From Ruminococcus sp. (GTDB lineage Bacteria; Bacillota; Clostridia; Oscillospirales; Acutalibacteraceae): DNA of 43,805 bases. The position numbers and the translations under genes were made by a program. Position 1 is the stretch's first letter. Each line of letters starts with the position of its first letter. The notes under the pieces were generated by a model that saw only the letters and a program-made list of their open reading frames with translations, made no database searches and was not told the DNA's origin. Positions 18,570 through 21,563 of this stretch are shown in pieces. The DNA is taken from assembly GCA_017416065.1 (NCBI GenBank), contig JAFQDM010000013.1:1-43805 (forward strand). The letters are read 5' to 3'.

Positions 18570-19754
18570 ATGAAAGAATTTGAACTAAAATACGGTTGTA
18601 ACCCCAATCAGAAGCCTGCAAAGATCTATATGAAGGACAATTCCGAGCTGCCCATAGAGATCCTCTGCGGCAGACCCGGCTACATCAACTTCCTTGATGC
18701 ATTCAACTCCTGGCAGCTTGTAAAGGAGATCAAAGAGGCAACAGGTATGGTTTGTGCTACCTCCTTCAAGCACGTAAGCCCCACCTCTGCAGCAGTGGGA
18801 CTTCCCCTGTCTGATGCTCTCAAGAAGGCTTGCTTTGTAGACGATATTGAGGACCTTGATTCCTCACCTCTTGCCTGCGCATATGCAAGAGCAAGAGGCA
18901 CCGACAGAATGTCTTCCTTTGGCGATTGGATAGCTCTCTCTGACGTTTGCGACCTGAAGACCGCGGAGCTTATCAAGCGCGAGGTTTCCGATGGTGTGAT
19001 CGCTCCCGGTTATGACGAGGATGCCCTTGAGCTCCTTAAGTCCAAGAGAAACGGCAACTACAACATCGTAAAGATCGACCCCGATTACGTACCTGCGGCT
19101 GTTGAGACAAAGGAAGTATTCGGCATTACCTTTGAGCAGGGAAGAAACAACTTTGAGATCAACGAAGCTCTTCTTGAGAATGTAGTAACCGCAAATAAAG
19201 AGATTCCCGAGGATGCAAAGCGCGACCTTATCATCGCACTTATCACCCTCAAATATACACAGTCCAACTCCGTATGCTTTGCAAAGGACGGTCAGGCTAT
19301 CGGCGTAGGCGCAGGTCAGCAGTCCAGAATCCACTGCACACGCCTTGCAGGTAACAAAGCAGATATCTGGCATCTCAGACAGCATCCCAAGGTGCTCTCC
19401 CTGCCCTTTAAGGATAACGTAGGCAGACCCGACAGAGACAACGCCATCGACGTTTATATCTCAGACCAGAGCGAGGATGTGCTGGCAGACGGCAACTGGG
19501 AGAGAATCTTCACAGAAAAGCCCCAGGAGCTTACAGCACAGGAGAAGAGAGAATATCTTGATTCCGTAACAGGTGTTGCTCTGGGCTCAGACGCATTCTT
19601 CCCCTTTGGCGACAACATCGAGCGTGCAAGACGCTCCGGTGTATCTTACATTGCAGAGCCCGGCGGCTCCATCCGTGACGAGAACGTGATCGAGACCTGC
19701 GACAAGTACGGCATCGCAATGGCATTCACAGGAATGCGACTCTTCCATCACTAA
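18570..19754 (+). CDS. Stand-alone AICAR formyltransferase (PurH C-terminal domain type)
   Basis: A 394-residue protein equivalent to the AICARFT half of bifunctional PurH, without the MGS-like IMP cyclohydrolase half. It transfers formyl from 10-formyl-THF to AICAR, and the product goes to PurO encoded just upstream. SFKHVSPTSAAVG carries the Lys-His pair known to be catalytic in PurH, and QSNSVCFAKDGQAIGVGAGQQSR is the core substrate-binding block. PFGDNIERARRSGVSYIAEPGGSIRD completes the signature near the C-terminus. TAAGGAG precedes ATG 18570. Stand-alone versions are sometimes called PurV. The gene is followed by the DUF559 element before purD. Confidence 0.92.
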   Translation: MKEFELKYGCNPNQKPAKIYMKDNSELPIEILCGRPGYINFLDAFNSWQLVKEIKEATGMVCATSFKHVSPTSAAVGLPLSDALKKACFVDDIEDLDSSPLACAYARARGTDRMSSFGDWIALSDVCDLKTAELIKREVSDGVIAPGYDEDALELLKSKRNGNYNIVKIDPDYVPAAVETKEVFGITFEQGRNNFEINEALLENVVTANKEIPEDAKRDLIIALITLKYTQSNSVCFAKDGQAIGVGAGQQSRIHCTRLAGNKADIWHLRQHPKVLSLPFKDNVGRPDRDNAIDVYISDQSEDVLADGNWERIFTEKPQELTAQEKREYLDSVTGVALGSDAFFPFGDNIERARRSGVSYIAEPGGSIRDENVIETCDKYGIAMAFTGMRLFHH

Positions 19755-19761
19755 TAGGCAA

Positions 19762-19809
19762 GGCTCCCTTGTGTAAAGGGAGCTGGCACCGAAGGTGACT
19801 GAGGGATTG
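19762..19809 (+). repeat. Left terminal inverted repeat of the DUF559 element
   Basis: The constant hairpin CTCCCTT-GTGTA-AAGGGAG (19764-19782) is followed by the variable hairpin CACC-GAA-GGTG and then GAGGGATTG (19801-19809). Confidence 0.8.
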
Positions 19810-19840
19810 TCTTTGAAAGTCTTTTTACAGAGGAAATGTG

Positions 19841-20212
19841 ATGGAATATAAACATAATAAAGATATAGTTTTTGTTGCAAGAACACTTCGTAAAAATATG
19901 ACAAAGGAAGAACGCCATTTGTGGTATGACTTTCTTAGAGAATACCCTGTTAAATTTTTAAGACAAAAACCAATAGGAAATTATGTAGTTGATTTCTATT
20001 GTGCACAGGCTAACTTGGTTATAGAACTTGATGGCTCACAGCACTATGATGCTGAGGGGTTAAGAAAGGACAAGGAAAGAACCGACTTTCTCGAGTCTTA
20101 TGGGATTAAAGTTCTTAGAATAACTAATTTGGAAATGCACAAAAATTTCAGAGGTGTTTGCGAATATATTGATAATTTAGTTCAGCAATCCCTCCGTCAG
20201 CCAATCGGCTGA
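19841..20212 (+). CDS. DUF559 / Vsr-like endonuclease-fold protein
   Basis: A 123-residue protein. ATG 19841 is chosen because AGAGG (19829-19833) lies 7 nt upstream; GTG 19838 is the alternative. The start EYKHNKDIVFVARTLRKNM and KEERHLWYDFLREYP are typical of DUF559 proteins. The nuclease-fold residues are D51 (VVDFYC), E62 and D64 (IELDGSQHY), followed by the strand IKVLRI. This is the Vsr/restriction-endonuclease-like core. The last eight residues and the TGA stop are encoded by the right inverted repeat, so gene and repeat are physically coupled. It is AT-richer than the purine genes around it, a sign of separate origin. A role in mobilising the flanking palindromes is inference. Confidence 0.87.
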   Translation: MEYKHNKDIVFVARTLRKNMTKEERHLWYDFLREYPVKFLRQKPIGNYVVDFYCAQANLVIELDGSQHYDAEGLRKDKERTDFLESYGIKVLRITNLEMHKNFRGVCEYIDNLVQQSLRQPIG

Positions 20213-20236
20213 CACCTCCCTTTACACAAGGGAGGC
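20186..20236 (-). repeat. Right terminal inverted repeat of the DUF559 element
   Basis: This is the inverse of the left end: CAATCCCTC, the variable hairpin GTCAGCC-AATC-GGCTGAC, then the constant hairpin CTCCCTT-TACAC-AAGGGAG (20216-20234). The variable stem differs from the left copy but is still paired. A further small hairpin CGACC-AAT-GGTCG lies just outside at about 20245-20257. Confidence 0.8.
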
Positions 20237-20291
20237 ACTTCGGGCGACCAATGGTCGTCCTACGGATTATAAATATTAACGAGGTGACCCC

Positions 20292-21563
20292 ATGAGGATA
20301 ATGGTAGTGGGTGGCGGCGGCAGAGAGCACGCCATCATCAAGAAGCTTCGCGAAAGCAGTAAGGTAACAGAGATCTTTGCTCTGCCCGGTAACGGTGCCA
20401 TTGCACAGGATGCAACCTGTGTAAGCATTGGTGCCAAGGATATTGAGGGTATTGTGAACTTTGCAAAGGAAAATAAGATCGAGTTTGCAGTTGTAGCACC
20501 CGACGACCCCCTGGTGCTGGGTGCTGTTGATGCTCTGCACAAGGAGGGAATCCCCTGCTTCGGCCCCGAGAGCAAGGCGGCTATTATTGAGGGAAGCAAG
20601 ATATTCTCCAAGAATATGATGAAAGAGGCAGGCATCCCCACTGCTCAGTACGAGACCTTTGACAATATGGACAAGGCTCTTGAGTACCTTGAGGACTGTG
20701 CAGTTCCCGTTGTTATCAAGGCAGACGGTCTGGCTCTGGGTAAGGGCGTTGTAATTGCAATGACTCGTGACGAAGCAAAGACTGCAGTCCGCGAGATGAT
20801 GGAGGATAAGGTCTTCGGCGACTCAGGCAGCAACATTGTCATAGAGGAGTTCCTCACAGGTCCCGAGGTTTCCGTGCTTTCCTTTACAGACGGTAAGGTG
20901 GTTGTTCCCATGGTTTCATCTATGGACCACAAGCGTGCAGGAGATAACGACACGGGCCTCAACACAGGCGGTATGGGCACCATTGCTCCCAACCCCTATT
21001 ACACAAAAGAAGTTGCCGACAGATGTATGAAGGAGATCTTCCTTCCCACCATTGAGGCTATGAATAAAATGGACAGAACCTTTAAGGGTTGCCTTTACTT
21101 CGGACTTATGATAACTAAGGACGGTCCCAAGGTTATAGAGTACAACTGCAGATTCGGCGACCCCGAGACTCAGGTGGTGCTCCCTCTGCTTAAAACCGAC
21201 CTGTTTGAGATTATGCAGGCTGTGGAAGAGGGCAGACTCTCAGAGGTAAACGTTGAGTTTAAGGACGAGTGTGCCTGCTGTGTTGTTATGGCATCCGAGG
21301 GCTATCCCAAGAAGTATCAGTCCGGCTTTGAGATAACCTACGATATGGACTTAGAGGCAGAGATCTTCGTTGCGGGTGCAAAGGCAGAGAACGGCAGACT
21401 TTATACTGCAGGCGGCAGAGTGCTGGGTGTTGTTTGCACGGCTCCAAAGCTTTCTCTTGCAGTTGAAAAGGCATACCGTGAGGTAGGCAAGGTTCACTTT
21501 GAGAACGCCTACTACCGCACGGACATCGGCAAAAAGGCACTTAAGGTTTTGGAGGAAAACTGA
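20292..21563 (+). CDS. purD: Phosphoribosylamine-glycine ligase (PurD)
   Basis: A 423-residue GAR synthetase that joins phosphoribosylamine and glycine with ATP, using the direct product of PurF. IMVVGGGGREHAI at the N-terminus is the family signature. The ATP-grasp fold is shown by PVVIKADGLALGKGV, VIEEFLTGPEVSVLSF and YNCRFGDPETQ. Length is standard (~425). The ATG at 20292 follows GAGGTG. It is separated from the upstream pur genes only by the DUF559 element. Confidence 0.96.
   Translation: MRIMVVGGGGREHAIIKKLRESSKVTEIFALPGNGAIAQDATCVSIGAKDIEGIVNFAKENKIEFAVVAPDDPLVLGAVDALHKEGIPCFGPESKAAIIEGSKIFSKNMMKEAGIPTAQYETFDNMDKALEYLEDCAVPVVIKADGLALGKGVVIAMTRDEAKTAVREMMEDKVFGDSGSNIVIEEFLTGPEVSVLSFTDGKVVVPMVSSMDHKRAGDNDTGLNTGGMGTIAPNPYYTKEVADRCMKEIFLPTIEAMNKMDRTFKGCLYFGLMITKDGPKVIEYNCRFGDPETQVVLPLLKTDLFEIMQAVEEGRLSEVNVEFKDECACCVVMASEGYPKKYQSGFEITYDMDLEAEIFVAGAKAENGRLYTAGGRVLGVVCTAPKLSLAVEKAYREVGKVHFENAYYRTDIGKKALKVLEEN

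Follow-up and report, generated by a model that had tools for sequence, protein, structure and literature searches.

This locus raises the question of how a nuclease gene bounded by palindromic ends came to lie between two purine genes, purH and purD, and whether it moves by means of those ends. The window is the whole 43,805-nucleotide stretch of Ruminococcus sp. (Acutalibacteraceae; assembly GCA_017416065.1, contig JAFQDM010000013.1), which is contig C10 of a source genome of 1.86 Mb in 36 contigs, 85% complete. Within the purH–purD gap, positions 19763-20236 hold a compact element with a single gene of the DUF559 family (Pfam PF04480, E 6.2e-30; 103.7 bits against a cut-off of 20.6) and ends spanning 19763-19808 and 20186-20235, each made of an outer hairpin, an inner hairpin and a short purine-rich tract. 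The best reading of the locus is an element with a Vsr-type nuclease and triplex ends, similar to the units formed by repetitive extragenic palindromes (REPs), their doublets forming hairpins (REPINs) and the REP-associated tyrosine transposases (RAYTs). The parts of the element are as follows.

19763..19783, plus strand: outer hairpin of the left end, GCTCCCTT-GTGTA-AAGGGAGC (direct reading; inverted repeat I1; fold)
19784..19799, plus strand: inner hairpin of the left end, TGGCACCGAAGGTGAC (direct reading; fold; family covariation)
19800..19808, plus strand: proposed third strand of the left end, TGAGGGATT (mirror rule tested on relatives)
19841 (ATG) to 20212 (stop), plus strand: DUF559 nuclease gene, 123 amino acids (Pfam PF04480; alignment A1; solved relatives 3hrl and 3r3p)
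20186..20195, minus strand: proposed third strand of the right end, GGAGGGATTG (mirror of AAGGGAGG)
20196..20213, minus strand: inner hairpin of the right end, GTCAGCCGATTGGCTGAC, containing the last codons and stop of the gene (direct reading; fold z -7.0)
20215..20235, minus strand: outer hairpin of the right end, CCTCCCTT-GTGTA-AAGGGAGG (inverted repeat; fold)

A first-pass annotation had described a DUF559/Vsr-fold gene between inverted two-hairpin ends, and this description holds, with the ends matching as arms 19764-19788/20210-20234 (25 nt, 92%) and 19796-19809/20186-20199 (14 nt, 93%). The stop was also correctly placed in the right end, codon 20210-20212 falling within its inner hairpin; GTG at 19838 is an alternative possible start. 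The 19-mer of the ends is present twice in the window, while none of 100 shuffles gave two matches with up to three mismatches allowed, and the DNA folding z-scores of the two ends are -4.0 and -7.0. Chance repeats are ruled out by shuffles and permutations. The annotation overlooked a third, mirror-symmetric segment 3' of the inner hairpin, and with it the triplex rule and the link to published intrastrand-triplex repeats. This purine tract (GAGGGATT) is the mirror of the purine arm of the outer hairpin, in which A may become T, and TGAGGGATT mirrors AAGGGAGC with T facing C and A or T facing A. Both window ends obey the purine-motif rule, in which the third strand is the mirror of the purine arm, with G.G, A.A or T.A pairs; the pairing table of third strands in purine-motif triplexes is the same as this observed A.A/T.A/G.G rule.

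The rule extends to the relatives of these ends. Outer stems differ between loci (CTCCCTT, CTCTCCC, CTTCTCC, CCCCCTT, CTCCTTT and others), so the outer hairpin, earlier claimed to be conserved in sequence, is fixed only within one 'flavour' of end, and tract and purine arm form mirror pairs such as GAGGGATT/AAAGGGAG, GAGAGGG/GGGAGAG, GATGAGG/GGAGAAG and GGGGTGG/GGAGGGG. The companion claim, that the inner hairpin changes while keeping its pairing, was borne out: Watson-Crick pairs make up 96.5% of the two outermost variable positions in a set of 71 distinct inner strings, against 30% when permuted (maximum 43% in 1000 permutations). The mirror rule is perfect in 64 of 125 distinct ends, against a permuted mean of 4.9 and a maximum of 13 in 500 permutations; these ends remained after a spacer filter had excluded 66 of 284 and duplicates had been merged (218 to 125). 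A in the purine arm faces A or T (182 and 119 of 320) and G faces G (472 of 561), and the outermost stem pair covaries with the first third-strand base in 81 of 82 cores, a G-C stem base going with T and C-G with G. Reading the tract as a direct repeat of the outer purine arm gave a poor fit (z 3.6, compared with 16.6 for the mirror rule) and was rejected. The rule was first noticed on some of the family loci on which it was later tested, whereas loci L164-L242, the other phyla and E. coli were examined afterwards. The reversed-sequence control of the first two-hairpin scan (705 vs 728) was uninformative because reversal preserves hairpins, and was replaced by permutations. Structural selection on the ends is real, and window-type ends are predicted to fold into triplexes. 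A variant solo end was seen in two loci of the same genome (L003 and L006, on C6 and C21), in which GGAAAG...CAGGAGGGATTG replaces the TGKCA/TGAC inner hairpin and the outer hairpin and third strand are kept.

The pairing of such ends with DUF559 genes was assessed in 92 loci of the same family, comprising the genome's own genes and hand-picked top-scoring hits among the matches listed, and in 79 further loci with named records, drawn from the best 80 of 584 candidates, one of which overlaps the 92. In a test that uses no motif, inverted repeats with a local score of at least 15 lie across the gene in 60 of the 89 loci with long enough flanks, compared with 2 of 356 placements made at random and 14% of 534 mismatched pairings of left with right. 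Left and right ends also match each other better within a locus (median score 18.0) than between loci (9.5). A perfect 8-nt triplex motif occurs within 280 bp of DUF559 in 69 of the 92 loci, but in only 2 of 173 far-end windows of the same loci. Among named loci with enough flank (n = 73), inward ends were present on both sides in 35, downstream only in 18, upstream only in 7 and on neither side in 13. Across all 171 loci, end density drops from 2.3 per kb, in the bin formed by the gene plus 100 bp at either side, to ~0.1 per kb at distances above 700 bp, and 69 loci carry inward ends within 150 bp of the gene both upstream and downstream; where named loci have a downstream end (n = 54), it starts at a median of 6 nt before the match end, this figure and the density resting on match ends that are approximate for many named loci. 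The pairing of compact DUF559 genes with ends that follow the triplex rule is judged secure, and nearly certain, within this family. A wider claim, that every DUF559 protein has such ends, was dropped, as divergent phylum and viral-contig loci lack them.

At genome level, 300 family genomes from 135 genera were compared, with a strong DUF559 match defined by our own threshold of E<1e-10. The strict end pattern is found in 52 of the 80 genomes with a strong match and in 22 of the 220 others (odds ratio 16.7, Fisher p 1e-20), the mean number of end copies being 3.95 and 0.23, respectively, and five or more copies are present in 20 of 80 as against 2 of 220. Read backwards, the end pattern had no match among the rows listed. 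Gene-less paired repeats are commoner in genomes with a DUF559 gene, as is expected of a REPIN/RAYT-type system.

Gene-less copies of the ends, which the first-pass annotation had named as support for a mobile element, are present in the same genome. The 19-mer occurs without the gene on C6, C21, C23 and C33 in exact form and on C13 with one mismatch, and the C23 copy is half of a gene-less inward pair of ~155 bp. A second DUF559 gene, on C19, has related ends, and DUF559 reaches up to six copies per genome. Of 25 gene-less inward pairs in which both end types could be resolved, 23 are heterotypic, their two ends being of opposite type. Internally deleted DUF559 units retain both ends; in one family genome (G016), two copies of one such unit, 306 bp apart, have the stretch from GCCTCCC to GGGAGCCTTT in common and differ outside. 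The same genome holds 27 near-identical ends, of which one precedes its DUF559 match by 34 bp, and two congeners have none. The gene-less copies, the deletion-derivative pair and the presence/absence sites suggest mobility. This burst in G016 was at one point taken as proof of DUF559 mobility, a use that was dropped once outer termini were found around the copies. As separate observations, five tandem C-type ends with a period of ~46 nt adjoin the second DUF559 gene (L002, C19:80062-83361, about 1250-1500), as if ends amplify in tandem, and several back-to-back end pairs with a constant AAAATAAA-type spacer are found in genome G198 (L410-L435), the opposite arrangement to that of the gene-bearing unit.

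The ends also recall a repeat known from E. coli. According to the available part of Holder et al. (2015; PMC4666352), the intrastrand triplex repeat TM_ECO, termed there a purine motif triplex, occurs in 262 proteobacterial genomes, forms a triplex in vitro, includes five A-plus-B pairs and follows the pattern CCCTCNCCCN3-6GGGNGAGGGN3GGGNGAGGG, and the E. coli gene contexts given show no mobility functions next to it. The heterotypic gene-less inward pairs described above resemble these A-plus-B pairs (PMC4666352). The search reported in that part of the paper allowed loops of 1-6 nt, and ends with an inner hairpin would have been missed because of this limit (PMC4666352). The window ends fail the TM_ECO pattern, from which they differ in sequence and loop length. 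In E. coli, the DUF559 gene is ycjD, present in 3365 of 5426 complete genomes. A full TM_ECO-pattern motif, TM_ECO being a Box C-like repeat, is overlapped by the 3' end of ycjD in strain Q65, a second TM_ECO lies downstream of ycjD, and K-12 retains a TM_ECO remnant at the gene. The Q65 form is found at a match of at least 99% in only 173 of 5393 matching records, and the longer form of the ycjD-end motif is called an insertion in the available part of another study (PMC12817139). Places matching a ycjD-plus-repeat query average 23.8 in genomes with ycjD (n = 37) and 8.5 in those without (n = 22; p 1e-9), as counted in 59 of 60 rows spread over the ranking, one partial record of 0.79 Mb being excluded. 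Between mrcB and hrpB lies a TM_ECO-like pair for which 3521 of 5426 genomes show coverage of 80% or more; SE15 lacks the pair, and the edges there are unclean. The sapF-fabI interval (L323:11041-11835, L324-L326) carries either ycjD with TM_ECO repeats or the efflux operon eef, and the swap may be an element-linked event.

In other phyla, nine DUF559 loci were hand-picked from 44 matching plasmid records: Deinococcus (2), Pseudanabaena (2), Synechocystis, Picosynechococcus, Azospirillum, Neisseria and Photobacterium. The 8-nt motif, with at most one mismatch, lies within 250 bp in seven of the nine. The two exceptions are Picosynechococcus and one of the Pseudanabaena loci, which has only shorter motifs. 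Controls gave none in 180 shuffles, none in 81 windows of 580 bp from E. coli and none in 72 from the window analysed here. At both Deinococcus loci, the 3.3 kb examined contain just two motifs, which flank the gene. The motifs of Neisseria and Photobacterium occur as arrays, and background copies may therefore explain their presence there. In Neisseria gonorrhoeae (L345, 1983-2678), triplex motifs recur every ~281 nt downstream of the DUF559 match.

The protein itself is consistent with a nuclease. Residues R13, E20, W24, Q38, D47, E58, D60 and H64 (aligned-segment numbering) are invariant in 36 aligned proteins and include the candidate catalytic D, ExDG and H. Its sequence matches the solved structures 3hrl ('Endonuclease-Like Protein', E 2.6e-26) and 3r3p ('Mobile intron protein', E 1.5e-6), and PADLOC and PHROG homing endonuclease models match as well. 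In the available part of earlier work, YcjD was assigned to the PD-(D/E)XK superfamily and its profile finds Vsr (PMC1189080), and a Caulobacter DUF559 protein is stated, in the accessible text, to trigger the SOS response in a methyltransferase mutant (PMC12907096). Profile searches of the only gene of the unit returned DUF559 and nuclease-type or unnamed profiles only, with no HUH/Y1 tyrosine transposase and, in Pfam, no TnpA domain, which rules out a RAYT, IS605 or DDE gene within the unit.

The element would be a minimal autonomous mobile unit encoding one Vsr-type PD-(D/E)XK (DUF559) endonuclease. When its ends become single-stranded, during replication or in another such state, each would fold up as two hairpins, an outer one and an inner linker, with a third purine strand laid along the outer hairpin as a purine-motif triplex. 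The DUF559 protein may then recognise the triplex-hairpin and nick or cut beside it, and host replication and repair might insert the released unit, by copying or joining, at new intergenic positions. End pairs without a gene, resembling REPINs or miniature inverted-repeat transposable elements (MITEs), would be mobilised in trans by the same protein. Recognition and cutting of the ends by DUF559, and the copying step, are putative. That the DUF559 nuclease moves these units is the best explanation, and somewhat probable, from their distribution and anatomy. The chances are about even that the units represent a new class of mobile element in several phyla, in which a Vsr-type nuclease mobilises units by recognising their ends as intramolecular triplexes and YcjD is the missing enzyme of TM_ECO. 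If so, the known element types would be joined by one whose enzyme is of neither the HUH nor the DDE kind, and DNA triplexes would have a biological role. It may also explain how a long-known orphan class of bacterial DNA repeats spreads, one intrastrand triplex repeat being known in more than 260 bacterial genomes with no enzyme or route of spread given in the available part of its description (PMC4666352). DUF559, a nuclease family without an agreed function, is now connected with triplex repeats both by locus and by genome, in bacteria ranging from gut Firmicutes to E. coli, and the question is therefore testable in E. coli.

RAYTs are HUH tyrosine transposases associated with structured REP repeats. 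The element resembles REPIN/RAYT systems in being a small, intergenic, single-gene unit with inverted structured repeats, gene-less copies in the same genome and two paired end types, but its enzyme is a PD-(D/E)XK Vsr-like nuclease, and its ends carry a mirror-symmetric third strand where REPs carry a GTAG or CGTC tag (as in the title of PMC3733652). With TM_ECO, in the part of its description at hand, the ends share the order of pyrimidine arm, purine arm and third purine arm and the pairing rule, some inverted two-type pairs, an intergenic position and strain variability. They differ in having a hairpin of 16-19 nt as the second loop, beyond the limit of 1-6 nt, and their two types differ in the outermost stem pair, while those of TM_ECO differ, in the same part, in the second loop. 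No associated nuclease is named in the available part of Holder et al. (PMC4666352), where, as in the TRIP1 paper (PMC10888264), DUF559 and ycjD are not mentioned. By title, no DUF559 or ycjD paper on repeats was found in the open-licence literature, although prior work elsewhere is possible, and DUF559 is absent from open-licence papers that combine at least three of triplex, REP, MITE and related terms. Insertion sequences (IS) of the IS200/IS605 family have subterminal hairpins and single-stranded recognition. The element shares hairpins at both ends and a proposed single-stranded recognition with them, but its sole gene is neither TnpA nor TnpB. Vsr-like homing endonucleases (3r3p) and Vsr/VsrA are sequence-related, small stand-alone nucleases; the window gene, by contrast, has no intron or intein context, its neighbours being purH and purD, and has its own structured ends and non-autonomous copies.

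A number of observations weigh against movement by the DUF559 nuclease. The association statistics over the 300 genomes ignore kinship; 28 of the 80 strong-DUF559 genomes have no strict end pattern, and 22 of the 220 others have ends, two of them with 9 and 11 copies. Some DUF559 genomes without the strict pattern carry ends of another flavour, and score as negative because the pattern cannot match these. Scores at or above the threshold also arise from same-strand similarity across the gene, in 29 of 89 loci, as expected because self-complementary hairpins are shared. No motif accompanies divergent DUF559 proteins: it was seen at none of 11 divergent phylum loci (close ones, 1 of 2) and at none of the 56 viral-contig loci at E 1e-15 or above, compared with 10 of 24 below that value. 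Outward gene-less pairs are not heterotypic (13 of 25), and the third strand is directed away from the gene in Deinococcus and Synechocystis, but towards it in Firmicutes and E. coli. Of 8 aligned E. coli strains, 7 (K-12 and six others) have an incomplete motif at the 3' end of ycjD, with 12 bases missing. In the three ycjD-less strains read, ycjD alternates with the efflux operon eefRABCD and there is no empty site, the eef operon at this place being also described in the available part of PMC12817139. Some ycjD-negative strains have up to 20 repeat places, phylogroup being a confounder, and Holder et al. found no triplex in vivo by dimethyl sulfate (DMS) footprinting, according to the available part of the paper (PMC4666352). 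The analysis revealed no target-site duplication, nor a clean junction at purH-purD or ycjD; of the earlier proposal of a mobile element, the view of a compact unit with its own ends is supported, and movement by its own nuclease is not established. Finally, a GGGCTGTTGCA-type terminus lies outside the triplex end in 17 of the 27 G016 copies, including one deletion derivative, and outside the end pair in 15 of 16 aligned copies that were picked from the 27 for similar flanks; another transposase may therefore have amplified them.

These termini are what a passenger of a conventional transposon would show, the ends being structural cargo in MITEs moved by an ordinary transposase and DUF559 incidental cargo. 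This is highly improbable, since 10 of the 27 copies have no such terminus, the two deletion derivatives have sequence in common only between their outer hairpins, and DUF559 is again paired with ends in Deinococcus, cyanobacteria and E. coli, where no search for outer termini was made. A homing-type parasite, in which triplex repeats spread otherwise and free-standing DUF559 homing genes insert into or between repeats that serve as recognition sites, would account for the relation to the mobile-intron protein and the homing models, for the commonness of gene-less ends (27 copies and one DUF559 match in G016) and for the 9 and 11 copies in two genomes without a DUF559 match. It is unlikely, however: in the window, as in many named loci and in E. 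coli Q65, the right end takes in the final codons of the gene, an overlap that suits an integral end more than a target, the ends of a locus match each other better than those of other loci, and internally deleted units keep both ends. No intact homing target was recognised in 28 related purH-purD gaps, and the window gene is intergenic. It is quite improbable that DUF559 is instead a structure-specific repair nuclease of the host that removes or repairs triplex or hairpin DNA, with proximity due to co-selection and copies due to replication slippage or recombination. The invariance of the candidate catalytic residues is compatible with such a role, and triplex repeats are linked to instability (available part of PMC4666352), but a host repair gene need not lie between its own substrates at different genomic places, deletion derivatives and up to six copies per genome are unexpected, and ends are commoner, not rarer, where the gene is present. 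In G016 (L061, L353-L378), repeats of ~250 nt with GGGCTGTTGCA / TGCGACAGCTC termini enclose triplex-end pairs in many copies, a nested repeat that possibly belongs to another transposase.

The site of the element in the window lies between the following genes.

18570..19754, plus strand: purH-like gene (AICARFT/IMPCHase), the upstream neighbour (Pfam PF01808, E 8.3e-58)
20292..21563, plus strand: purD gene, the downstream neighbour (Pfam GARS domains)

In the same genus, 39 other genomes were matched and the loci of 29 read, 28 of which span the whole purH-purD gap. No DUF559 gene was found by hmmsearch at this site in the 29 loci, and the gap is merely 11-29 bp in 15 of the 28. Neither a fixed insertion nor a distribution of ends unrelated to DUF559 was observed, the gene being absent from these loci and sharing its distribution with the ends. 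As to the empty sites that the first-pass annotation had named as support, the gene is absent from these loci; a further point against movement is that the three nearest relatives (~82% purH identity) carry other intergenic DNA at purH-purD, and because of this the exact insertion junction is unreadable. Known Rfam RNAs are ruled out (no match at gathering scores). An ordinary intrinsic terminator is likewise ruled out, in line with the earlier statement that the insertion has no polar terminator, the sole terminator-like site in a simple scan of 19700-20320 being on the minus strand at 20279-20293. At 20242-20262, in the interval from the element to purD, lies a short palindrome, GGGCGACCAATGGTCGTCC, and a similar one is present in the same gap of locus L098.
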